From Roseiflexus sp. RS-1 (GTDB taxonomy: Bacteria; Chloroflexota; Chloroflexia; Chloroflexales; Roseiflexaceae), in the NCBI RefSeq assembly GCF_000016665.1, contig NC_009523.1:5331501-5395500 (forward strand): a DNA stretch of 64,000 bases, given 5' to 3'. The notes under the pieces are model-generated. The model did not search any database. It worked only from the letters and a program-made list of their open reading frames with translations, and had not been told where the DNA came from. Shown here one piece after another: positions 12,319 through 57,556 of this stretch. The translations under genes and the position numbers were made by a program. Position 1 is the stretch's first letter. Every line of letters starts with the position of its first letter.

Positions 12319-12509
12319 GCAGTCGAGAGCACGCTGCCCGCGCTCCCATGATGGGTCACAAAGTGGAGCGAGGGTGTCCCGACCTCGCAGGCTTACGGGG
12401 CAGGTTTTTTGGCAAGCCCCGGCGTGCCATCTCCCGTTTCAGGCAGCAGGACGCCCAGACCCCCCCTTCTCCCCTTGTGGGAGAAGGGGGTCGGGGGGAT
12501 GAGGGGCAA
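12319..12509. repeat. 191-bp intergenic direct repeat, copy 1
   Basis: The unit begins GCAGTCGAGAGCACGCTGCC, contains GGCAGGTTTTTTGGCAAGCC, and ends in a C-rich/G-rich palindromic stretch (CCCCTTCTCCCC...GGGGAGAAGG-type) before GATGAGGGGCAA. It recurs 232 bases downstream with few differences. A partial third piece (GTGGAGTGAGGGTGTCCCGACC) precedes it near 12289. No convincing gene is seen here. Confidence 0.85.
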
Positions 12510-12550
12510 ACGCGCACGGGAACGCAGAAGGGAAAAAGGGCGTCAGGATA

Positions 12551-12741
12551 GCAGTCGAGAGCACGCTGCCCGCGCTCCCATGATGGGTCACAAAGTGGAG
12601 CGAGGATGTCCCGACCTCGCAGGCTTACGGGGCAGGTTTTTTGGCAAGCCCTGGCGTGCCATCTCCCGTTTCAGGCAGCAGGAGACCCAGACTCCCCCTT
12701 CTCCCCTTGTGGGAGAAGGGGGCTGGGGGGATGAGGGGCAA
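12551..12741. repeat. 191-bp intergenic direct repeat, copy 2
   Basis: This is the second copy of the unit, about 95 percent identical by eye, between the YdcF-like gene and the 3' end of the exopolysaccharide operon. The CCCCTTCTCCCCTTGTGGG stretch and its complement form a strong hairpin. It may be a dispersed palindromic element of this genome; a genome-wide copy number would show that. Confidence 0.85.
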
Positions 12742-12825
12742 CAGCGCCTGGAAATGCAGCAGGGAAACAGGGCATCCAGACGAGGGTTTGGAGGGCGATC
12801 TTCTACCAGGAGGTGCGACCGGACG

Positions 12826-25158: not shown

Positions 25159-27717
25159 TTATCTTACTATTAGCGGCAAAAATACCCGATAGCCTTTCTG
25201 GTAGGTTTCGCCACTGGTGTACGGCAGCCCGCTCAGAGCATTGCCCGCCAGGTCGGTGATCGTGGCGGCAGTCGGAATGTCCAGTCGCAGCGTGCCGTCG
25301 CCGGTTCCGGTGCTCACCGTGACGGTGTAGATAGCGCCCGACCCGCTCACCCCGGTGACGCTCGCGCCGCTGATGCCGGTGACCGTGAGGGCGAAGTCGG
25401 CGACGCCCACGCCGGTGACCGCTTCGGTGAAGGTCACGATAAAGTTCACGCTTGCCGCACTGGTCGGGTTCGGGTCGGCGCGAGTGATCGACGCGACGCC
25501 GGGCGCGGTCGTGTCGTAGGTGCGACTGAACGAAGCGGCAGTGTTGCCGTTGCCCGCTGCATCGACGGCGACGTTCGCGGCAATCGTGGCGGTGACCAGT
25601 CCGTTGGCGGCGGGGGTCAGGTCGAAGGTGTAGGATGCGCCGCCGCCCGCAAAGTTGCTCACCGAACCGTTGCTCACGGCGATGTCGCCTGCGGTGAAGC
25701 CGGTCACCGGCTCGCTGAAGGTGACCGTGACCGGAATGGGCGCGCTGTTGGTCGGATTGGGCGCGCTTGAGGTCATCGTGACACCGGGCGCGGTTTTGTC
25801 CACGGTGTAAACCTGGCCGCCGGTAAACGGCAGCCCGCTCAGGGCGTTGCCCGCCAGGTCGGTGATCGTGGCGGTGTTCGGAATGTCCAGCCGCAGCGTG
25901 CCGTCGCCGGTTCCGGTGCTCACCGTGACGGTGTAGACGGCGCCCGACCCGCTCACCCCGGTGACGCTCGCGCCGCTGACGCCGCCGGTAAGCGTGAGGG
26001 CGAAGTCGGCGACGCCCACGCCGGTGACCGCTTCGGTGAAGGTGACGACAAAGGTCACGCTCGCCGCATTAGTCGGGTTCGGGTCGGCGCGGGTGATAGA
26101 GACCACCGTGGGAGGAGTATTGTCATATTCATACGCACCCATATCCACCGTTCCGTTCTGAATGCGGGGCTTGCCCTCCAGGTCGGTCGTGACGCCCGTG
26201 GGAACGGCAGCGTTGTTTCCGGTATCGATGGAGGGTGAGCCAGATTGCAGGCGCAGGTTGTCGTCGAGGGTGCCCACGATGTTGTCGGGACCGTCGGCGT
26301 CCACAAAGAACGGATCGGCATTGATGTTGGTTGTGCCGGAGTAGCCGCCCTGAATGTTGCTGTAGGTGACGTCAGGAGTGCTGGAGCTATTGATGATACT
26401 GCCTCCGACGCTGTTCCAGATAATAACGTTGGTCAGAGTCGGGTTGCTGCCGTTAAAATTGGCCATCCCGCCGCCGGAGCTGGCAGTATTGCCGCTGAAG
26501 GTGACATTGATCAGGTTCGGGTTGCTGCCGTTAAAATTGGCCATCCCGCCGCCGCTGACTGTTACGGCATTGCCGCTGAAAATGACGTTCGTCAGGATCG
26601 GGCTGCTGTTCTCATTGAACATCCCGCCGCCAGCCTGTGCAGCATTGCCGCTGAAGATGACATTGGTCAGGGTGGGACTGCTATCAAAAAAGTTGTACAT
26701 CCCGCCGCCAGACTGCGCAGTATTACTGCTGAAGGTGACGTTGGTCAGGGTGGGACTACTGTTGTCGTAGTTGAACATCCCGCCGCCGCTGCTGCCCATC
26801 CCTGACGCAGTATTGCCGCTGAAGGTGACATTGGTCAGGACCGGGTTGCTGTTACTGTTAAACATCCCGCCGCCAGCCTGTGCAGCATTGCCGCTGAAAG
26901 TGACATTGGTCAGGGTGGGACTGCTATAAAAGTTGTACATGCCGCCGCCAGACTGCGCAGTATTACTGCTGAAGGTGACATTGGTCAGGGTCGGGTTGCT
27001 GCTGTTCTCGTTATACATCCCGCCACCGAGGTCAGCAGAATTACCGCTGAAGGTGACATTGGTCAGGGTCGGGTTGCTGCTGTTAAAATTGGCCATCCCG
27101 CCGCCGCTGTTGGCAGCATTGCCGCTGAAGATCAGATTGCGCAGCGTCGGGCTGCTGTTGTTGTTATACATCCCGCCGCCAGCGTCGTCGGGGGGGGAAG
27201 GACTGTTGGCATTCCCGGCAGTGATGGTGAAGCCGTCCAGTACAGCGGTGTTGTTCGTCCCGCCGCCGGTGACGACATGATAGGCGTTGACGCCTGCGAT
27301 ATTCGCCGTACTGGTCACCACGCCATTGGCGTCAGTGATGTCGTCCTGGTTGATATCGCCGCTGAGGACGGTGACGTTGGTCTGCCAGTCGCGCTGGGCG
27401 AGCGATGTCTCCGTTCCGGCGAAGCCGCCGTAGACCGCCACGCCGTTCTTCAGGGTGAAGGTGTCGGTCTGGCTCGAGCCGGGACGATGCACGCCTTGCC
27501 GGACCCATATCTGGTTGCCGCTTGTGGCGTTCGTCAACGCCGTTTGCAGGGTGCAGGCGTTCGCCCACGAGGAACAGTCAGCGCTGCCGGTCGCAGTCGG
27601 CGCGGCGTAGAGCACGCTGGAGGCGCTGACAGGTCGGGGCGCTGGCAGAACGGCGGTCATGATCAGGAAGACCCCAAGAACGAAGAGCGTGGCAGGCGAT
27701 TTGAGTGATGCGGACAT
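25159..27717 (-). CDS. secreted PMP-repeat beta-helix protein with Ig-like domains and LPLI tail
   Basis: The 852-residue protein starts with a signal peptide (LFVLGVFLIMTAVLPAPRPVSA). Residues from about 30 to 430 form a right-handed beta helix: after a DUF1565-like start (TGSADCSSWANACTLQTAL) there are ten copies of GGGM(Y/F/A)N...SxPTLTNVTFSGN, resembling the Chlamydia polymorphic membrane protein repeat. Three Ig-like domains follow with paired motifs SVTFVVTFTEAVTGVGVADFA, the first and third almost identical. The protein ends YQKGYRVFLPLIVR, a tail seen again on another protein in this window. It is predicted to be exported and to act at the cell surface, possibly in adhesion; no catalytic residues are visible. 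Confidence 0.85.
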   Translation of the reverse strand: MSASLKSPATLFVLGVFLIMTAVLPAPRPVSASSVLYAAPTATGSADCSSWANACTLQTALTNATSGNQIWVRQGVHRPGSSQTDTFTLKNGVAVYGGFAGTETSLAQRDWQTNVTVLSGDINQDDITDANGVVTSTANIAGVNAYHVVTGGGTNNTAVLDGFTITAGNANSPSPPDDAGGGMYNNNSSPTLRNLIFSGNAANSGGGMANFNSSNPTLTNVTFSGNSADLGGGMYNENSSNPTLTNVTFSSNTAQSGGGMYNFYSSPTLTNVTFSGNAAQAGGGMFNSNSNPVLTNVTFSGNTASGMGSSGGGMFNYDNSSPTLTNVTFSSNTAQSGGGMYNFFDSSPTLTNVIFSGNAAQAGGGMFNENSSPILTNVIFSGNAVTVSGGGMANFNGSNPNLINVTFSGNTASSGGGMANFNGSNPTLTNVIIWNSVGGSIINSSSTPDVTYSNIQGGYSGTTNINADPFFVDADGPDNIVGTLDDNLRLQSGSPSIDTGNNAAVPTGVTTDLEGKPRIQNGTVDMGAYEYDNTPPTVVSITRADPNPTNAASVTFVVTFTEAVTGVGVADFALTLTGGVSGASVTGVSGSGAVYTVTVSTGTGDGTLRLDIPNTATITDLAGNALSGLPFTGGQVYTVDKTAPGVTMTSSAPNPTNSAPIPVTVTFSEPVTGFTAGDIAVSNGSVSNFAGGGASYTFDLTPAANGLVTATIAANVAVDAAGNGNTAASFSRTYDTTAPGVASITRADPNPTSAASVNFIVTFTEAVTGVGVADFALTVTGISGASVTGVSGSGAIYTVTVSTGTGDGTLRLDIPTAATITDLAGNALSGLPYTSGETYQKGYRVFLPLIVR
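26430..27190 (-). repeat. ten tandem PMP-type repeats within the beta-helix gene
   Basis: Each unit encodes GGGM followed by an aromatic/Asn segment and LTNV(T/I)FSGN. DNA units such as GCCGCTGAAGGTGACATTGG recur nearly unchanged, so the block is prone to unequal recombination and copy-number change. Confidence 0.85.
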
Positions 27718-31920: not shown

Positions 31921-33993
31921 TCAGCGCACGACGAGCGGCAGTAACAATTGATACACAATGGTACGTTCGATGGTTACCGTGTCATCGGCGAGATCGTACA
32001 GATTGGCATCGCCCTGCACGATTTCGACCGACATAGTGATTGTTGCAACGCCAGGATTGGGTTGCACCTTCACGGCGAACTGTGCCTCGCCTGAGTCGCC
32101 GGGCGCAAGCGGACGAGCCACGCTCAAGGCGCACAGAGCGCCAGCCGGCGCGCCGTCGGCGCACGTCCAGCCGGGTGCGCTTCCTGTTGAAGAAAACGTT
32201 GTTCCCTGGGGCGCAACGATGCGCAGCGTCGCTCCGGGTGCAGTGATCTGACCGTTGTTCGTGTAACGCAGCCGATACGCGAATGACGTACCGGCTATCG
32301 CCTGCGGCGCCGCTTCGACGGTCACACGCAACCGCGGTGCACCCGTGTTGGTCAGGTTGAACACTGCTGGCGTCGCCGCACCGGCGACGGCAGCCGTCAC
32401 CTGATAACCGCCCGCCACATCATTGGCAACTGCCGTCACGCTGGCTTTTCCTTCGGCGTTGGTCGTCGCGGTCGTCCCAGCGGGAAACGTCGCACCTGCT
32501 CCAGATGAGGGTGCGCTGAACGTCACGGTTGCACCTGGCGCCGGATTGCCGTAGATATCGGTAATGGTCACTTCCAGCGGCGCGGAAAAGGCGGTGTTCA
32601 CCGGGGCGCTTTGGGTCGCGCCGCCGGTCGCCGCAATCATATTCGGCGCGCCTGCCAGATTGGTCAGTGTAAAGACGGCTGGCGTCGTGGTGGCGGGGGA
32701 GGTCGTTGCTGTCACCTGATACGTTCCGGCGACCGTATTGGCTGCCACAACCACGCTGGCGCGTCCATTCGCATCGGTCAGGGCAGTGTTGCCGCCGGGA
32801 AACAGTGCGCTTGCACCCGAAACCGGCGCGCTGAAGGTGACGAGCACTCCTTCGACCGGGCTGCCATTCTCGCCAACGACAACGACCTCCAGCGGCGCGG
32901 CGAAGGCGCTGCCGACAGTTGCCTGTTGTCGATTGCCACTGCCAGGATCGATGCGCGGCAGATCGACGCGCGTCAGCGTCACGCTGGTGGTTATGCCGCC
33001 GGTCGTGACATAGCGGAGCAGGAATTGAAGCCCGTCCACTGTCAATACGCTGCCGTCCGGCAGGTTGGCGAATGTCCCCAGGATGGCGCCAGTTCCGCCA
33101 ATGCGCTCAATCAGCGTAAACATGTCGCCTGGGGCGGGCGTATACCCTGCACCAAGACGCACGATCAATGTAGCGTTGTTGAGCTGCACGTGACGATTGG
33201 GAATAGGCGAGACGCCGTCCTGGTCGAATCGCAGCGTATCATAACCATTGCTGACTGCGCCCTGAACAGGTCCATTGAGATCGAATTCCATCGTCACATT
33301 CGACTGGAGGACCAACCCGCCGATGGTAAGGAGCGCGCCTGTGCCGCTGCTAACGCTGCCGAACGTTTCACCGATCCCCAGTGTGCCTCCTGCGGCGCTG
33401 GCGTTGTACACAATCTCCGCCGATCTCCCTGTGCCGTAGACATCGAACCGACCGGCGCCCGCCTCACTGCGGATGAATCCGCCGGGGTTGTTGTTGCCGC
33501 TCAGGTAAAGGACAAGCGATCCGGGTCCGATCAGACGCAGCGAGCGACCAAAGGCATTGTCGATAGTTCGGGCGAGGGTGAGGCGCGTACCGACGGTTGG
33601 AGTGATAATGAGGTTGTTGGGAATCAGCACCGGCGCGGCAATGGTATGCGTGCCACTGGCGACATTGATCTGGCGCGTGGTCAGAGTGCGCCCGACTGCG
33701 CTGACGACGGCATACGGCTGCGCGCTGTCGAACGTTATCTGGCGGGTTGCAATGTTGGTATTCCGAATGGTGACGGTTGCCGGACCGGTGTTGACAGCGC
33801 CAAAGGTTGCGTCGTCGTTCGTATTGTTGGGAAAAGGACCTGGATTCCAGTTCGAATTGACATCCCAGTCACCATCGCCGGATAGAAACCAGGCGCCGCT
33901 TGCAGCATAGACTGGTCGGATGGCGCTCATTGCAAGCATCCCGATGAGCATCAGCGCCATCAATGCACGCCAGGGCGCAATAATGTTGTGCAT
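31921..33993 (-). CDS. secreted protein with Ig-like (Big-1 type) domains and LPLV tail
   Basis: The 690-residue protein has a signal peptide (ALMALMLIGMLAMSAIRPVYA). The N-terminal third (SGDGDWDVNSNWNPGPFP, then strands such as VLIPNNLIITPTVGTRLTLA) resembles the autotransporter-associated beta-strand repeats found in large adhesins. Two Big-1 type Ig domains follow, each with VTFSAP and LTDANGRASV or TTNAEGKASV, then a DUF11-like domain (YRLRYTNNGQITAPGATLRI). It ends IVYQLLLPLVVR. It is probably a cell-surface or sheath component. I start at the ATG behind GAAGGAAGG; the frame is open for eight codons before it. Confidence 0.85.
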   Translation of the reverse strand: MHNIIAPWRALMALMLIGMLAMSAIRPVYAASGAWFLSGDGDWDVNSNWNPGPFPNNTNDDATFGAVNTGPATVTIRNTNIATRQITFDSAQPYAVVSAVGRTLTTRQINVASGTHTIAAPVLIPNNLIITPTVGTRLTLARTIDNAFGRSLRLIGPGSLVLYLSGNNNPGGFIRSEAGAGRFDVYGTGRSAEIVYNASAAGGTLGIGETFGSVSSGTGALLTIGGLVLQSNVTMEFDLNGPVQGAVSNGYDTLRFDQDGVSPIPNRHVQLNNATLIVRLGAGYTPAPGDMFTLIERIGGTGAILGTFANLPDGSVLTVDGLQFLLRYVTTGGITTSVTLTRVDLPRIDPGSGNRQQATVGSAFAAPLEVVVVGENGSPVEGVLVTFSAPVSGASALFPGGNTALTDANGRASVVVAANTVAGTYQVTATTSPATTTPAVFTLTNLAGAPNMIAATGGATQSAPVNTAFSAPLEVTITDIYGNPAPGATVTFSAPSSGAGATFPAGTTATTNAEGKASVTAVANDVAGGYQVTAAVAGAATPAVFNLTNTGAPRLRVTVEAAPQAIAGTSFAYRLRYTNNGQITAPGATLRIVAPQGTTFSSTGSAPGWTCADGAPAGALCALSVARPLAPGDSGEAQFAVKVQPNPGVATITMSVEIVQGDANLYDLADDTVTIERTIVYQLLLPLVVR

Positions 33994-34188
33994 CACGGCA
34001 CACCTTCCTTCATGCACATGTTTCCAGGTGCACAGCAGCCGATATGGAAAGATGGCACGCCATCGCTACAGGCGGTGCATCTCGTAACAGTGTTCCACAC
34101 ACGCGGTGGGTCAGAATGGATCGACCGTTCTGTTTCGCTTTCAGTATCCGTCAGCGTATAACCAAAACGTAACCAGAAGTGCTATCGC

Positions 34189-48883: not shown

Positions 48884-51800
48884 TTACGGTTCAACCGGAC
48901 CCGGCAAATCGCGTGGCGGCAGGGCAACCGGTGCGTCAGGTGCGCCGGAGGGCGCTCCCGGATCGGCGCCGTTGCTGAACGATGCTCCTGCGACAACGAA
49001 ACCGGTAATCTGAGCGCGATTGTTGGTTTCGTTGCTTTCGACCACTGCGCCTGTCGGCACCGGCGGGTTGTAACTGTCGACGTAGACGTACAGGGCATTC
49101 GTGCCACTGGCGAAGGAGCCGGGCCAGATCGATTGCGGTCCGGCGAACTGTCCTGGCGCAGAGGTCAGGGTGATACTCTGCCCTGGCGCCAGGGACTGGT
49201 TCACATACCAGGCAATGCCGTAGCACGGCGAGATGCCGCAGACGTCGTTCCAGCGCACATTCGGCGTGGTTGGCGGCGTCGATGGGTTGATGTAGAGATC
49301 GACCCAGAACCCGACCGTTGTCGGTGAACCGCCAACGTTCTTGACCTTCACCGTAATCAGCACCGGTTCGCCTGCCGCATAACTGCTCTTCGCGGGTGTG
49401 ACCGTGAACGCTTCGACCACCAGGTCTGGCGGCGTTACCGGTACCATAACCAGCGGCAGGAAGACCCGTGTCTGCGTCCGGTACCCGGCATCCAGCGTGG
49501 TGATCGACTGACCGGCCCCCAGCGTTCCGATTGCAACCGGCGCGTCGCTGTCAACCGCTGGATCGCTGCCGACGCGCGGCGTGATGTCGAAGTATCCCGC
49601 CGGTTTGGTGAATGTCAGCACGAATGTGCCCGGTGGCAGATTAGCGAACGTGTAGGCGCCGCTGGCGTTGGTGGTTGTGCTGAGCGTCAACGGCGAGGAC
49701 AGGACGGTCGGCGTGATCGTCAGGGTGACCTGCACGCCTGCGATGCGCTGCGTTTCGCTCGGGTTGCGAATATCGTCGAAGTTCTCATCGATCCAGGCGA
49801 TGCCGGAGATCGACCCGTTGCCGATGAGTCCGGCGTCGATTGTTGCCGAAATCTGGTTGCTTGCCAGCACGAAGGGTGCGGTGCGACCATTGCTCTGCGC
49901 GTCGTTGTCGTTATCGACGCTCAGTGAACCGAGACCGTTATTGACCGTCTGGAAGCCTGACGGCACGACAAACTCGACCACATACGAGCCGGGCGTCACA
50001 TTCTCGAAGCCGTAGAAGCCTGCATTGCCGCCTGCCAGAGTTGTGGTCGTAGAGATGACCACATCGGTTGCAGCGTCACGCAGCCGGACGGTAATGCCTG
50101 GCAGACCGGCATCGACACCGGCTTCGTAGGTTCCGTTGCCGTTCACATCGAGCCAGACGCGATCACCGACCGCTGCGGTGCGGTACAATCCGAAGTTTTG
50201 CCCGGTCGCCGGCAGCGTTCCGCTCAACGTCCCGGCAGTCGAAAGCAGGTAGCCGAGCGGCTTCGCGGTGACGCTGAGCTGGTAATTGCCCGCTGGCAAC
50301 TGGTTGAAGGTAAAGTTAGGCGAACCTGCGCCACTCGTCACCGTGTATGTGACCGTGGGATTGGTCGAGTTGATCGATGTGGTCACCGTCAATGTCAGCG
50401 TGACGCCTGATAGTCCGGTCTCACCCGCATCGAACGTTCCATCCGCGTCGGTGTCTTCCCACGCCGTGCCGCTCAGCGACAGGTTGCCGACTGCGCCAGC
50501 ATCGACATAGGTGACCGTCTCGTTCGATCCGACGCTGAAGCGGTCGGTGTAGCCATTGGTTGTATTCGCGTCGCTGTTGTTGTCCGTTGTGATGGGTGCG
50601 CCCTGGGTTGTGAAGGCGTACCCGGTCGGCAGTTCGAAGCGGACGCGGTAGAGCGTACCGGTTGTCAGCACATCGGTTGGTGTGATGTTCGTGAACTGGT
50701 AGATGCCATTATCACCGGTCGTGAATGTACCGATCGATGTCTCATTGCCGTTGACCGTCGCATCGGGATCGAGATAGAGCGTCACAGTGACGCCTGCCAT
50801 CGTCGGCTCGCCGGTATCGAACGTTCCATTGACGTTGGTGTCGAACCAGGTTGTGCCGCTGATGACGCCGGGGCGGTAGTAGCCGAACGGCAGCGGCGTG
50901 ATCGTTTGCCCGCTGGTCAATGGCGCCGTGACAGTTACCGTCCCCGTGTTCCCCGGCGAGGGGAAGTAGCCGGCAGGCACACTCGCCACCCCCACCGTGT
51001 ACGCAGTTGTCGTCGGTGTAACCGTGTACGAGATGATACCGGTCGCATCAGGTCCGAACGGTCCGCCGAGCGTCACGTTCGGCGTCAGGGTTACCGTTGC
51101 TCCAGTGATCGGCGCATCGCCAGATGCATACACGTTATTGATCGGTGATGTGGTCTCCTCGAAGACGCGCACCTGAATGACCGCCGGGCGATAGTAGCCG
51201 CGGTCGCGGGTTTCGGTTGTATTGCGCTGCAACCCCTGGTCATCGAGTTGATCAGGTCCGGTTCCGATGCCGTCGCTGTCGGTCGCTGGCGCTCCGACAT
51301 CCGCCAGGGTGGCGAACCACCCGGACGGCGTGGCGAAGTCCAGCGTGAAGGAGACTTCGGTGCTGGCGTTCGCCCACCCCGGCAGCGCGGTGAAGGTGTA
51401 GAAACCGCTGGCGTTGGTCGTGGTGTTGGTCGTGATCGTCGTGCTCAGCAGCCCCGGCAGGTTGACGGTGACCGTCAGGTTGACCGTCACCCCCGGCAGC
51501 GCGCCGACGGTTTCGCCAGCGTCGCGCTGCCCGTTGCCGTTGAGGTCTTCCCACACCTGCCCGGTCACTGTGGCGCGTCCGCGCACCGCCGCCGTCCTGC
51601 TGATGGCTGCGCCAGAGGTGACGGTGAACGGCGCTGTCTCGGCATACGTGTTGCCGCCGTCGGTCGCCGCCATATCATTGTCGCCGCCCGCAGGCGTGAC
51701 AAGCAGGAAGTTCAGCGTATCGGGGTTGGTCACCCGCACCGTGTAACTGACGGCTGGAGTCACATTGGTGAAGGTGTAGGCGCCGGTCGCGTCGGTGGTG

Positions 51801-54800
51801 GTGGTCAGCACGTCGCTGCCGCCCAACCGCAGCGTGACCGTCACGCCCTGCATCCCCGGCTCGGTGTCGGCGAACAGGATGTTGTCGGCGTCGCGGTCGA
51901 AGCGCACCGCGCCGGTCACCGTGCCGGGGCGGAAGTAGCCGAACTCCAGCCCGGACGGTCCAACCGTCTGCCCTGGCACCGGGTTGGGGATGACCTGCGC
52001 CGCGCCGGTGTTCCCTGGCGACGGGGTGAAGCCCGTCGGAGTGTCGACATTGACCCAGTACGGCGTGGTGCTGCTCGTCGGCACCAGAGTGAAGGTGATC
52101 AACCCGGTCGTGTCAGACACCACGCTGAGCGGCGTCACCGTCCCGTTGGTGGTGGTGATCGTCACCGTGGCGGTGGTGATGCCGGTGTCGCCCGCCTGAT
52201 ATGCGTTATCGACCGGCGGGTTTTCGTCAAACACGCGCGCCACGACGGTCACCGCCCGGAAGTAGCCGAACTGGAACACCCCCGCGCTGTCGCCCGGTCC
52301 CGGATTGGGCGTCACCTCCAGCGCGCCGCCGTTCCCTGGCGACGGCGCGAAGCCGGGCGGGGTAGCCACATTCACCCAGTAGGGCGTGGCAGCGTCGGTC
52401 GGCACCAGGGTGAAGGTGATCAAGCCGGTCGCATCGATGGGTGTGGCGTTGAGCGGCGTCACCGTCCCGTTGGTGGTGGTGATCGTCACCGTGGCAGTGG
52501 TGATGCCGGTGTCGCCCATCTGGTAGGCGTTATCGACCGGCGGGTTTTCCTCAAACACGCGCGCCACGACGGTCACCGCCCGGAAGTAGCCGAACTGGAA
52601 CACCCCCGCGCTGTCGCCCGGTCCCGGATTGGGCGTCACCTCCAGCGCGCCGCCGTTCCCCGACGACGGCGCGAAGCCGGTCGGGGTGGCGACATTCACC
52701 CAGTAGGGCGTGGCAGCGTCGGTCGGCACCAGGGTGAAGGTGATCAAGCCGGTCGCATCGATGGGCGTGACGTTGAGCGGCGTCACCGTCCCGTTGGTGG
52801 TGGTGATCGTCACCGTCGCGGTGGTGATGCCGGTGTCGCCCATCTGGTAGGCGTTATCGACCGGCGGGTTTTCCTCAAACACGCGCGCCACGACGGTCAC
52901 CGCCCGGAAGTAGCCGAACTGGAACACCCCCGCGCTGTCGCCCGGTCCCGGATTGGGCGTCACCTCCAGCGCGCCGCCGTTCCCTGGCGACGGTGCGAAG
53001 CCGGGCGGGGTAGCCACATTCACCCAGTAGGGCGTGGTGTTACTGGTCGGTACGAGGGTGAAGGTGATCAACCCGGTCGTCGGGTCGATAGGTGTCACGC
53101 TGAGCGGCGTCACCGTCCCGTTGGTGGTGGTGATCGTCACCGTCGCGGTGGTGATGCCGGTGTCGCCCGCCTGGTAGACGTTATCGACCGGCGGGTTTTC
53201 CTCAAATACGCGCGCCACGACGGTCACCGCCCGGAAGTAGCCGAACTGGAACACCCCCGCGCTGTCGCCCGGTCCCGGATTGGGCGTCACCTCCAGCGCG
53301 CCGCCGTTCCCCGACGACGGCGCGAAGCCGGGCGGGGTAGCCACATTCACCCAGTAGGGCGTGGTGTTACTGGTCGGTACGAGGGTGAAGGTGATCAACC
53401 CGGTCGTCGGGTCGATAGGTGTCACGCTGAGCGGCGTCACCGTCCCGTTGGTGGTGGTGATCGTCACCGTCGCGGTGGTGATGCCGGTGTCGCCCGCCTG
53501 GTAGACGTTATCGACCGGCGGGTTTTCCTCAAATACGCGCGCCACGACGGTCACGGCGCGGAAGTAGCCGAACTGGAACACCCCCGCGCTGTCGCCCGGT
53601 CCCGGATTGGGCGTCACCTCCAGCGCGCCGCCGTTCCCTGGCGACGGCGCGAAGCCGGGCGGGGTAGCCACATTCACCCAGTAGGGCGTGGCAGCGTCGG
53701 TCGGCACCAGGGTGAAGGTGATCAAGCCGGTCGCATCGATGGGTGTGGCGTTGAGCGGCGTCACCGTCCCGTTGGTGGTGGTGATCGTCACCGTGGCAGT
53801 GGTGATGCCGGTGTCGCCCGCCTGGTAGACGTTATCGACCGGCGGGTTTTCCTCAAACACGCGCGCCACGACGGTCACCGCCCGGAAGTAGCCGAACTGG
53901 AACACCCCCGCGCTGTCGCCCGGTCCCGGATTGGGCGTCACCTCCAGCGCGCCGCCGTTCCCTGGCGACGGCGCGAAGCCGGTCGGGGTGGCGACATTCA
54001 CCCAGTAGGGCGTGGCAGCGTCGGTCGGCACCAGGGTGAAGGTGATCAAGCCGGTCGCATCGATGGGCGTGACGTCGAGCGGCGTCACCGTCCCGTTGGT
54101 GGTGGTGATCGTCACCGTCGCGGTGGTGATGCCGGTGTCGCCCATCTGGTAGGCGTTATCGACCGGCGGGTTTTCCTCAAACACGCGCGCCACGACGGTC
54201 ACCGCCCGGAAGTAGCCGAACTGGAACACCCCCGCGCTGTCGCCCGGTCCCGGATTGGGCGTCACCTCCAGCGCGCCGCCGTTCCCCGACGACGGCGCGA
54301 AGCCGGTCGGGGTAGCCACATTCACCCAGTAGGGCGTGGTGTTACTGGTCGGTACGAGGGTGAAGGTGATCAACCCGGTCGTCGGGTCGATAGGTGTCAC
54401 GCTGAGCGGCGTCACCGTCCCGTTGGTGGTGGTGATCGTCACCGTCGCGGTGGTGATGCCGGTGTCGCCCGCCTGGTAGACGTTATCGACCGGCGGGTTT
54501 TCCTCAAACACGCGCGCCACGACGGTCACGGCGCGGAAGTAGCCGAACTGGAACACCCCCGCGCTGTCGCCCGGTCCCGGATTGGGCGTCACCTCCAGCG
54601 CGCCGCCGTTCCCTGGCGACGGCGCGAAGCCGGGCGGGGTAGCCACATTCACCCAGTAGGGCGTGGCAGCGTCGGTCGGCACCAGGGTGAAGGTGATCAA
54701 GCCGGTCGCATCGATGGGTGTGGCGTTGAGCGGCGTCACCGTCCCGTTGGTGGTGGTGATCGTCACCGTGGCAGTGGTGATGCCGGTGTCGCCCGCCTGG

Positions 54801-57556
54801 TAGACGTTATCGACCGGCGGGTTTTCCTCAAACACGCGCGCCACGACGGTCACCGCCCGGAAGTAGCCGAACTGGAACACCCCCGCGCTGTCGCCCGGTC
54901 CCGGATTGGGCGTCACCTCCAGCGCGCCGCCGTTCCCTGGCGACGGCGCGAAGCCGGTCGGGGTGGCGACATTCACCCAGTAGGGCGTGGCAGCGTCGGT
55001 CGGCACCAGGGTGAAGGTGATCAAGCCGGTCGCATCGATGGGCGTGACGTTGAGCGGCGTCACCGTCCCGTTGGTGGTGGTGATCGTCACCGTCGCGGTG
55101 GTGATGCCGGTGTCGCCCATCTGGTAGACGTTATCGACCGGCGGGTTTTCCTCAAACACGCGCGCTACGACGGTCACCGCCCGGAAGTAGCCGAATTCTA
55201 ATCCGGTCGGTCCGACGGTGTCCCCACTGATTGGATCAGGCGTAATCTGAACGGCGCCGCTGTTCCCCGGCGACGGGGTGAAGCCGGGCGGCGCGGCGAC
55301 GTTGACCCAGTAGGGCGTTGTGGTCGGCACGAGGGTGAAGGTGATCAACCCGGTCGTCGGGTCGATGGGCGTCACGCTGAGCGGCGTCACCGTCCCGTTG
55401 GTGGTGGTGATCGTCACCGTGGCGGTGGTGATGCCGGTGTCGCCCATCTGGTAGGCGTTATCGACCGGTGGGTTTTCGTCAAACACGCGCGCCACGACAG
55501 TAACAGGTCGGAAAACAGCCGCATCAACGCCGGGGTTCTGGCTGCCGCGCGTAATCGTAAACGTGGGTGTGCGCCAGACGCGCCCGCCGACGAACGCGCG
55601 AACGTCGTTGACATCATCGGAGTTCGCAGCGGGTGGATCGACACTGAGCCATCCGGTTGGGGTGTAGACGCTTGCTACATAGTCTGGCGGCAGCGCACTC
55701 AGATCGAACGTCGCGTAGTATGTGCCGGAGAGAATATCGGTGATGGTGTAGATGCCGCTGGCATTGGTCGTCTGCGGCAAGCCAACTGGCACGCCATCAG
55801 CAGTGTAGAGTTGAACGGTCACACTCGGAACGCCTGTTTCGCTCAGGTTGAAAATTCCGTCGCCGTTGTTATCTTCCCAGACGAAGTTGCCAATTTCAGC
55901 GCGCGCAATGCCGAAGTCAGCGTTCAGGAAGGAAGGAGCGGTCGCAGTCAGGGCTGTCGTCATCGTAATAAAGACGCCTTCGTTTGAGCCGCAGGCTGCG
56001 CCGGTGGTGTAGCCAAGCCCTTCGAGCGCGCCGCCGGGGGCGAAGTTGGAGGCATCAAGAACGACAGTGTACGTTACTCCGAGCGGCAGCGAGTCGAAGA
56101 GGTAATATCCGTTGAGATCGGTTGTCGTCGTCAGTTCACCAGTGTTGATCAGACAGTCGCTGTTCAGATCGATGAAAACAAGGGCATTCGCCAGTCCAAG
56201 CGTCGTTTCGAGTGGATCGACAATTCCGTTACGGTTCACATCGTGCCAGACGAAATCGCCAACTGTGCCGGCGTAGAGACCGAAGTTCGAGGTCTCGTTG
56301 CGGCGATTGGTCGCATTCAGGGTAAAATCAGGCGTCTGGAGGAAATCACCCGTGCCGATAACCACAGGACCAGGATCTGTCCCATTGCGCAGACCCTGAT
56401 TACCGATCTGCGGCAGCGACACCGTTTGCGTTTGCGGCGTTGCGTGTCCGAAGAGCAGGTCGGTTGACTGGTCAAACTCAGCGTTCGGAATGCGCACCCG
56501 GTAGGTCGCCGTCAGCGGCACGCTTGTGAACTCGAAGAAACCGGCGCGGTTGAAGGGATCGTTGAGGATCGAGCGCGTCGTTTCCGTCATGATGGGGGTA
56601 GATCCTGAGAGCAACTCGACCGTCACGCCGTTGATGAACGGTTCACCGGGGTCGCGCAAACCGTTCTGGTCGAGGTCGCGCCAGACGAAGCCGCTCACCG
56701 CGCCGCGCGAAAACCCGATATCCAGGCTATCGTCATTCACGCCCTGCGCCTGGTTGGGCACGTTAATGCGCGGCTCGCCCGCAAAGTAGGCATCAGAGTC
56801 GCGCCGATCCTCACTGTCGAAGTTTGCGTTCTGCGTTGTCAGCACATATCCGGCGGGAACGCCGCCGGTCACGCGGATGGTGTAATTGTTGACGTTTGCC
56901 GGTACACTGTCCACAAAGCGGTATGTCCCGTCCGGTCCTGTGGTCGCAGTGGCAACCAAACCGTTCGAGGGATTGTACAGACCAAGCGTCAACCCATCAA
57001 TCCCCGGTTCACCGGCGTCCTGAATACCGTTGGCGTCGAGGTCATCCCAGGCGCGCACCACGATCGTGCGGCGAGGTGGCGAGTCAGGTGCGTCAGGGTC
57101 TATGCCGCCGACAAGCGTCCGCAACCCGACATCACGCCACACAAGCCCGCCACTGATCGTCACACGAAACACCAGGGCATTATCCTCTGTTGGCGACGAT
57201 GGCGGGATAGAGACAACAGTAGTTACGGGGTTCGTCACTTCAACGCGGTAGTCGCCGTTGGGTATGCTCGGAAAAGTTGCCAGACCATTAGAGTCCGTAT
57301 TGACAAGGTAGCTCAGGTTGTTGTCGGTATTGTACACCGCCACCGGCACTCCGCTCACTCCGGGCTCGCCAGAGTCATACTGTCCATTACGATTACTATC
57401 CGTATAGACGCGGATCGTCAAATCACCGACCGCGCTAGCGACGCGTGCGCCAAACAAAGCGAACAGCGTCGAGATCATCAAAGCGGCAGCGGCAATTGCC
57501 GCCCAGCGGCGCATATGCGTGCGTTGAGTGCGATGGAATGAGCGGCTTGTTGCCAT
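48884..57556 (-). CDS. giant secreted SdrD/Cna-B-like repeat protein with C-terminal CARDB domain
   Basis: At 2890 residues this is by far the largest protein here. A signal peptide (WAAIAAAALMISTLFALFGARVASA) precedes many prealbumin-like (SdrD B) modules, recognisable by DxNxNGxxDxGEPGxxGVxV and GxYxFxxxxP blocks whose Asp/Asn residues bind calcium in relatives. Residues about 681-1874 are eleven nearly identical modules of about 107 residues. Near 2690 stands RVFLPLVMVPVT, then a CARDB domain (LVVEAFTVTPAKSSYAAGEPV, SNETNNRAQITGF). It ends without a sorting signal or anchor. It is probably a surface fibre or sheath component. The start is the ATG behind GAGGTGG. Confidence 0.9.
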   Translation of the reverse strand: MATSRSFHRTQRTHMRRWAAIAAAALMISTLFALFGARVASAVGDLTIRVYTDSNRNGQYDSGEPGVSGVPVAVYNTDNNLSYLVNTDSNGLATFPSIPNGDYRVEVTNPVTTVVSIPPSSPTEDNALVFRVTISGGLVWRDVGLRTLVGGIDPDAPDSPPRRTIVVRAWDDLDANGIQDAGEPGIDGLTLGLYNPSNGLVATATTGPDGTYRFVDSVPANVNNYTIRVTGGVPAGYVLTTQNANFDSEDRRDSDAYFAGEPRINVPNQAQGVNDDSLDIGFSRGAVSGFVWRDLDQNGLRDPGEPFINGVTVELLSGSTPIMTETTRSILNDPFNRAGFFEFTSVPLTATYRVRIPNAEFDQSTDLLFGHATPQTQTVSLPQIGNQGLRNGTDPGPVVIGTGDFLQTPDFTLNATNRRNETSNFGLYAGTVGDFVWHDVNRNGIVDPLETTLGLANALVFIDLNSDCLINTGELTTTTDLNGYYLFDSLPLGVTYTVVLDASNFAPGGALEGLGYTTGAACGSNEGVFITMTTALTATAPSFLNADFGIARAEIGNFVWEDNNGDGIFNLSETGVPSVTVQLYTADGVPVGLPQTTNASGIYTITDILSGTYYATFDLSALPPDYVASVYTPTGWLSVDPPAANSDDVNDVRAFVGGRVWRTPTFTITRGSQNPGVDAAVFRPVTVVARVFDENPPVDNAYQMGDTGITTATVTITTTNGTVTPLSVTPIDPTTGLITFTLVPTTTPYWVNVAAPPGFTPSPGNSGAVQITPDPISGDTVGPTGLEFGYFRAVTVVARVFEENPPVDNVYQMGDTGITTATVTITTTNGTVTPLNVTPIDATGLITFTLVPTDAATPYWVNVATPTGFAPSPGNGGALEVTPNPGPGDSAGVFQFGYFRAVTVVARVFEENPPVDNVYQAGDTGITTATVTITTTNGTVTPLNATPIDATGLITFTLVPTDAATPYWVNVATPPGFAPSPGNGGALEVTPNPGPGDSAGVFQFGYFRAVTVVARVFEENPPVDNVYQAGDTGITTATVTITTTNGTVTPLSVTPIDPTTGLITFTLVPTSNTTPYWVNVATPTGFAPSSGNGGALEVTPNPGPGDSAGVFQFGYFRAVTVVARVFEENPPVDNAYQMGDTGITTATVTITTTNGTVTPLDVTPIDATGLITFTLVPTDAATPYWVNVATPTGFAPSPGNGGALEVTPNPGPGDSAGVFQFGYFRAVTVVARVFEENPPVDNVYQAGDTGITTATVTITTTNGTVTPLNATPIDATGLITFTLVPTDAATPYWVNVATPPGFAPSPGNGGALEVTPNPGPGDSAGVFQFGYFRAVTVVARVFEENPPVDNVYQAGDTGITTATVTITTTNGTVTPLSVTPIDPTTGLITFTLVPTSNTTPYWVNVATPPGFAPSSGNGGALEVTPNPGPGDSAGVFQFGYFRAVTVVARVFEENPPVDNVYQAGDTGITTATVTITTTNGTVTPLSVTPIDPTTGLITFTLVPTSNTTPYWVNVATPPGFAPSPGNGGALEVTPNPGPGDSAGVFQFGYFRAVTVVARVFEENPPVDNAYQMGDTGITTATVTITTTNGTVTPLNVTPIDATGLITFTLVPTDAATPYWVNVATPTGFAPSSGNGGALEVTPNPGPGDSAGVFQFGYFRAVTVVARVFEENPPVDNAYQMGDTGITTATVTITTTNGTVTPLNATPIDATGLITFTLVPTDAATPYWVNVATPPGFAPSPGNGGALEVTPNPGPGDSAGVFQFGYFRAVTVVARVFDENPPVDNAYQAGDTGITTATVTITTTNGTVTPLSVVSDTTGLITFTLVPTSSTTPYWVNVDTPTGFTPSPGNTGAAQVIPNPVPGQTVGPSGLEFGYFRPGTVTGAVRFDRDADNILFADTEPGMQGVTVTLRLGGSDVLTTTTDATGAYTFTNVTPAVSYTVRVTNPDTLNFLLVTPAGGDNDMAATDGGNTYAETAPFTVTSGAAISRTAAVRGRATVTGQVWEDLNGNGQRDAGETVGALPGVTVNLTVTVNLPGLLSTTITTNTTTNASGFYTFTALPGWANASTEVSFTLDFATPSGWFATLADVGAPATDSDGIGTGPDQLDDQGLQRNTTETRDRGYYRPAVIQVRVFEETTSPINNVYASGDAPITGATVTLTPNVTLGGPFGPDATGIISYTVTPTTTAYTVGVASVPAGYFPSPGNTGTVTVTAPLTSGQTITPLPFGYYRPGVISGTTWFDTNVNGTFDTGEPTMAGVTVTLYLDPDATVNGNETSIGTFTTGDNGIYQFTNITPTDVLTTGTLYRVRFELPTGYAFTTQGAPITTDNNSDANTTNGYTDRFSVGSNETVTYVDAGAVGNLSLSGTAWEDTDADGTFDAGETGLSGVTLTLTVTTSINSTNPTVTYTVTSGAGSPNFTFNQLPAGNYQLSVTAKPLGYLLSTAGTLSGTLPATGQNFGLYRTAAVGDRVWLDVNGNGTYEAGVDAGLPGITVRLRDAATDVVISTTTTLAGGNAGFYGFENVTPGSYVVEFVVPSGFQTVNNGLGSLSVDNDNDAQSNGRTAPFVLASNQISATIDAGLIGNGSISGIAWIDENFDDIRNPSETQRIAGVQVTLTITPTVLSSPLTLSTTTNASGAYTFANLPPGTFVLTFTKPAGYFDITPRVGSDPAVDSDAPVAIGTLGAGQSITTLDAGYRTQTRVFLPLVMVPVTPPDLVVEAFTVTPAKSSYAAGEPVLITVKVKNVGGSPTTVGFWVDLYINPSTPPTTPNVRWNDVCGISPCYGIAWYVNQSLAPGQSITLTSAPGQFAGPQSIWPGSFASGTNALYVYVDSYNPPVPTGAVVESNETNNRAQITGFVVAGASFSNGADPGAPSGAPDAPVALPPRDLPGPVEP
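51935..55513 (-). repeat. eleven tandem 320-330-bp coding repeats
   Basis: Each unit encodes VTVVARVF(E/D)ENPPVDN(A/V)YQ through YWVNVATP(P/T)GFAPSPGN. The inner nine units are more than 95 percent identical in DNA by eye. Small variations (NV, NA or SV before TPID; TDAA or TSNT before TPYW) repeat in the order A-B-C-A-B-C-C-A-B, which shows a three-unit super-repeat. Confidence 0.92.

Follow-up and report, generated by a model that had tools for sequence, protein, structure and literature searches.

The window analysed here, a stretch of 64,000 nucleotides from the genome of Roseiflexus sp. RS-1 (a single contig of 5,801,598 bases), raises the question of why apparently secreted proteins of different domain composition share a short string built around Leu-Pro-Leu, and what that string does. 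A preliminary description had noted it in a beta-helix protein, an Ig-domain protein and a giant repeat protein, and translation of all three proteins confirmed each occurrence (Table 1). The string is C-terminal in the beta-helix and Ig proteins; the copy of the giant protein is internal and hence no tail.

The YLP-box and its carriers in the window

To name the motif we turned to NCBIfam. A scan of 51 proteins carrying the motif (hereafter carriers) returned the model NF050076, 'sort_motif_YLP', and a scan of the tails alone added NF053834, 'ultrashort_CTERM'; NCBIfam gives the two models the same description, 'YLP-box putative sorting motif-containing protein'. Judged by these matches the string is the already known, NCBI-catalogued YLP-box, a sorting motif whose role is putative; among the papers covered by our literature search, none described it or an experiment on it. 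The models and our tails share the same 10-11 residue motif, and both Roseiflexus tails and copies that follow the signal peptide exceed the curated cut-offs. In contrast, the models miss the LLLPLVVR of the Ig protein and, where tested, the Chloroflexus-type variants, such as KVYVPVIQR (L258-L277, G118), and the YLP-box-like Herpetosiphon-type post-signal forms MNYLPAV and TYFPVV (L244, L245).

We described the motif by a 12-position matrix trained on 42 tails from the Roseiflexus genome and its relatives, with a match threshold of at least 14 bits. Its consensus of ~10 residues is (Y)-R-V-[YF]-L-P-L-[VI]-[VIT]-R; the choice of training tails imposed L-P-L and the final R and left the remaining positions free. 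The top match, at 30.0 bits, is the tail of the beta-helix protein, whose terminal residues are KGYRVFLPLIVR. This tail also passes both NCBIfam models, with 17.7 bits in the genome scan and 16.7 bits in the fragment scan for NF050076 (cut-off 15) and 12.3 bits for NF053834 (cut-off 10). The protein has a hydrophobic, signal-like N-terminus and contains the Ig-like domains Big_12 (2e-19) and Big_5 (3e-10) according to Pfam and choice_anch_Q (5e-11, residues 486-532) according to NCBIfam. Its beta-helix repeats (NVTFSGNxA...GGGMYN) are encoded by a 78-base unit present ~9.6 times at 26429-27183.

The Ig protein starts with the signal-like N-terminus MHNIIAPWRALMALMLIGMLAMSAIRPVYAAS and ends in LLLPLVVR, which matches neither NF050076 nor NF053834. 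An orthologue from another species of the genus is 72% identical, in an alignment that reaches the final residue (query 549-690). LLLPLVVR is a divergent copy of the box. In the giant protein, the internal segment QTRVFLPLVMVPVTPPDLVV, with the string RVFLPLVMVPV, is preceded by the SdrD_B repeats (Pfam, 2e-196) and followed by CARDB (6e-5), and it scores 13.0 bits with NF050076, under the cut-off of 15. The gene of this protein contains a 324-base unit repeated 10.8 times with 92% matches (52001-55498). A plus-strand open reading frame at 51248-55201 (1,317 aa) extends across the array; it is probably not a gene but a mirror image of the repeats. Elsewhere in the window, at 12319-12773, two copies of a 232-base unit lie head-to-tail and are 93% alike.

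Table 1 YLP-box carriers of the window and the position of their boxes (window coordinates).
Feature	Position	Strand	Basis or content
YLP-box carrier, predicted exported, 852 aa (beta-helix protein)	25159..27717	(-)	Signal peptide, beta-helix-like repeats, choice-of-anchor Q, Big_5, Big_12, YLP-box
C-terminal YLP-box GYRVFLPLIVR of the beta-helix protein	25162..25194	(-)	Translation; stop codon 25159-25161
Predicted exported carrier with Big_1 domains and a DUF11 domain (Ig protein)	31921..34017	(-)	Pfam; likely start ATG at 33993
Divergent C-terminal YLP-box IVYQLLLPLVVR	31924..31959	(-)	Translation; matrix 22.1 bits
Giant predicted exported repeat protein, ~2,900 aa	48884..57658	(-)	SdrD_B / SpaA / CarboxypepD_reg-like repeats, CARDB near C-terminus
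Internal YLP-box-like segment RVFLPLVMV	49442..49468	(-)	Translation; matrix 19.6 bits; between last SdrD_B-type domain and CARDB

Restriction to exported proteins, conservation and spread

The part of the genome scanned without bias was a sample of 1.66 Mb, in which a home-made codon model called 1,276 proteins; genes and signal peptides were assigned by simple home-made rules instead of a standard gene finder and SignalP. The matrix matched 18 of these proteins, 16 at the C-terminus (a count that is partly circular, because the training set overlaps the sample), one after the signal peptide and one internally, in the giant protein. All 18 have a signal peptide, one of them being classed as 'membrane' by our rule, and five whole-set shuffles gave six matches in total versus the 18 real ones. 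None of the 663 cytosolic proteins of the sample was matched, a zero that is free of the circularity, and neither were any of its 40 lipoproteins or 13 proteins with a C-terminal helix. The comparison of secreted with cytosolic proteins suggested in the preliminary description thus gave 17 of 176 signal-peptide proteins versus 0 of 663 (Fisher p = 1.6e-12, for a matrix partly trained on the same tails), and that of the same signal-peptide proteins with lipoproteins and C-terminal-helix proteins together gave p = 0.015 (0/53), an anti-correlation drawn from 53 proteins. The box is confined to exported, non-lipidated proteins, and the enrichment of the tail on exported proteins is far from chance. 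The 18 signal peptides bear out the view that this is a short signal common to otherwise unrelated secreted proteins.

Pattern, matrix and family searches together found ~45 boxed exported proteins in the whole genome, with the box at the C-terminus in ~33, after the signal peptide in ~10 and internal in two. The genome scan with NF050076 alone gave 20 places above the cut-off, one of which, a 98-aa frame at 3130302, has no signal peptide. Carriers have a median length of 674 aa versus 330 aa for all signal-peptide proteins and include kelch-like, CAP, LamG-type, PQQ-type, metallopeptidase-like and expansin-like proteins. Several contain choice-of-anchor domains, which, by their name, occur with varied surface anchors. 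Adjoining genes that are both boxed are found at G000:C1:1399992-1402102 and at 452430-454052.

Comparison of orthologues revealed how the box is maintained. When the CAP protein L190 is aligned with two orthologues, identity is 35% in the linker, which contains indels, but reaches 89% in the box and 87% in the CAP domain. The orthologues of a kelch-like carrier keep RR[VI][FY]LPLVxR behind a Pro-rich linker; here the difference is smaller than in the CAP protein, with 73% identity in the linker versus 77-83% in the box, and indels occur in the linker only. Homologues at 27-33% identity still terminate in YLPLISR, YLPIVGR or LLPLVTR, and the orthologues of one carrier in Roseiflexus metagenome assemblies are 76-93% identical. 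These alignments show that the box is kept while the surrounding linker drifts; it is under selection.

A strict tail pattern occurs at 13 places in the Roseiflexus genome, and its backward-pattern control at none. The looser pattern V[YF]xPx[VI]x[RK]-stop has 196 places within the order, spread over 36 of 40 genomes (control 0). It has none in another 14 genomes from the class, and the 346 genomes from the rest of the phylum gave 30 places, in 21 genomes, versus 11 control places. Most of the loci inspected in other classes terminate exported-looking beta-domain proteins. By these pattern counts the tail is typical of the order, and its occurrence in the rest of the phylum is sporadic but real. 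The preliminary description had thought it peculiar to this lineage, yet it is not restricted to a narrow one.

Position of the box and relation to known sorting signals

The terminal Arg is exactly the last residue in 40 of 44 C-terminal boxes from the Roseiflexus genome and its relatives. These boxes form the last residues of the protein and no transmembrane helix follows; as the preliminary description had remarked, the helix and the basic end that mark sortase and PEP-CTERM signals are missing. The signal is not strictly C-terminal, given the ~10 proteins boxed just after the signal peptide. In these, a few to about a hundred residues separate the signal peptide from the box, which is mostly situated in a linker and often precedes Pro. 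Instances are L184 (QNGAYTVYLPLVIRDATY), L190 (SQRVFLPLIVRPIPPLPDDW), L191 (DRRVYLPLITRPATI) and L193. Pro/Thr-rich linkers often precede the box. CAP-domain proteins occur in both layouts, with the box N-terminal to the domain in L190 and at the protein end in L181 and L186. In an AlphaFold2 model of L190, built from a shallow alignment of 12 sequences (mean pLDDT 63), residues 1-95, which include the box region, have pLDDT values <50 and the adjacent CAP domain is well modelled; the model is consistent with a box carried on an exposed tether. A PDB search found no relative of this CAP carrier. Its close CAP homologues L242, L232 and L233 have an unnamed domain (FWEQNGGLPVFG...QWFERxRFELHPE) where L190 has the YLP-box linker, and this domain may be an alternative surface-binding module. 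We considered an LGFP-type wall-binding repeat as its identity and rejected this, as it has no Pfam or NCBIfam match.

Known C-terminal sorting signals are tripartite and consist of a signature, a transmembrane helix and a basic cluster (PMC11980579); the reference list of that paper includes a report of an archaeosortase substrate with an internal signal. Substrates of PEP-CTERM/exosortase, PGF-CTERM/archaeosortase, GlyGly-CTERM/rhombosortase and MYXO-CTERM/myxosortase resemble the YLP-box carriers in that a short C-terminal signature marks dozens of unrelated exported proteins in one lineage. They differ in being tripartite, whereas the YLP-box consists of a signature only and can lie close to the N-terminus. 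The LPXTG substrates of sortase are likewise exported and have a Leu-Pro core near the C-terminus, often preceded by a Pro/Thr-rich linker; unlike them, the YLP-box has neither helix nor basic cluster. The Roseiflexus genome encodes separate helix-bearing LPxTx-like proteins, one of them beside a sortase gene. This 718-aa protein (G000:C1:1227277-1229862) has the classical helix-bearing tail LPATSTGVPLAGFALLGATLLARTWRLHRARSRI.

Alternative readings and a proposed docking model

What, then, does the box do? It might be a cleavage or transfer signal, with a dedicated sortase-like or other protease cutting in or beside LPL and joining the protein to the wall or a lipid, as for LPXTG, PEP-CTERM, GlyGly-CTERM and MYXO-CTERM proteins. 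Its extreme C-terminal placement with a terminal Arg and the NCBI name 'putative sorting motif' would fit such a role, as would the presence of sortase (PF04203) in 78 of 80 genomes of the order, with five copies in the Roseiflexus genome. However, there is no transmembrane helix to keep the substrate at the membrane, the classical helix-bearing LPxTx-like substrates exist separately, and the distribution of the enzymes argues against this role. Exosortase (PF09721) was found in none of 56 near-complete genomes of the order and not in the Roseiflexus genome, and was rejected as the handler on this basis. Sortase was present in all 10 box-free genomes of the class tested and missing from four pattern-positive genomes of 95-97% completeness, among which box support is best in G262 and G168, uncertain in G405 and looks spurious in G389. 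By co-occurrence sortase is thus neither sufficient nor required, and as the sole handler it is weakened by these pattern-positive genomes without it and by box-free genomes with several. Moreover, a cut inside a box that follows the signal peptide would untether the functional domain. Taken together, we consider a cleavage signal unlikely.

The box could instead direct a second export or assembly step through an assisting chaperone or a secretion machine of the outer layer, by analogy with type IX secretion. Carriers are large and comprise adhesin-like proteins and enzymes, and the terminal placement would suit such a step. The C-terminal domains of type IX secretion comprise ~70-80 residues, though, versus ~10 for the box, our analysis turned up no machinery, and some boxes are found at the opposite protein end; we regard this role as distinctly improbable. 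Among the matches listed for 51 carriers (the first 25 of 62 NCBIfam families) there was no T9SS C-terminal domain family. The box, as a short hydrophobic peptide flanked by Arg, might also bind the membrane or a different polymer directly, with no receptor protein. Such binding would agree with the composition R-V-Y-L-P-L-V-V-R and with placement at the ends of flexible tethers, but the invariant P, the near-invariant L-P-L and the aromatic position look too specific for a hydrophobic patch, and we give this idea little credence. Finally, the tail might be due to chance, being either a hydrophobic C-terminal ending of a common kind or the final beta-strand of an Ig-like domain. Ig-like domains do precede the box in two of the three window proteins, yet the carriers extend to the unrelated folds listed above and the box often stands behind Pro/Thr-rich linkers and is conserved where these drift. 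With the absence from cytosolic proteins, the shuffles and the orthologue conservation, the chance and last-strand reading was rejected as exceedingly improbable.

We propose that the box is an uncleaved docking motif on a flexible tether, which would hold exported proteins at the surface via a putative envelope component, a reading to which we assign an even chance of being correct. The proteins would first undergo Sec/Tat export and ordinary removal of the signal peptide and would keep the box at the tip of a flexible tether. The box would then dock, as an extended beta-prone strand with its conserved Arg, into the putative envelope component of filamentous Chloroflexota, so that enzymes and adhesins would be held at the surface without a covalent bond. 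That one domain family, CAP, is boxed at either end fits uncleaved docking better than sortase cleavage, and docking is also favoured because a sortase-like cut in a box that separates signal peptide and functional domain would free this domain. The data favour retention without cleavage. As a counterpoint, the last position of Arg in 40 of 44 boxes could point to a role for the free carboxylate or for a processing step. The preliminary reading is partly supported, insofar as the box appears to be a sorting-type signal. More tentatively, and with more doubt than confidence, we suggest that an uncleaved, helix-free retention peptide of ~10 residues, placed at either end of the protein and recognized by a putative Chloroflexota envelope receptor, would constitute sorting without a sortase.

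Surface display is poorly understood in the Chloroflexota, which include filamentous phototrophs and bacteria of activated sludge and hot springs. The placement of the box at either end and its poor co-occurrence with sortase and exosortase redirect the search towards a binding partner and away from an enzyme that cleaves. Shared by dozens of adhesins and enzymes, a tag of ten residues would provide a handle for finding their envelope receptor and for displaying proteins on these cells.
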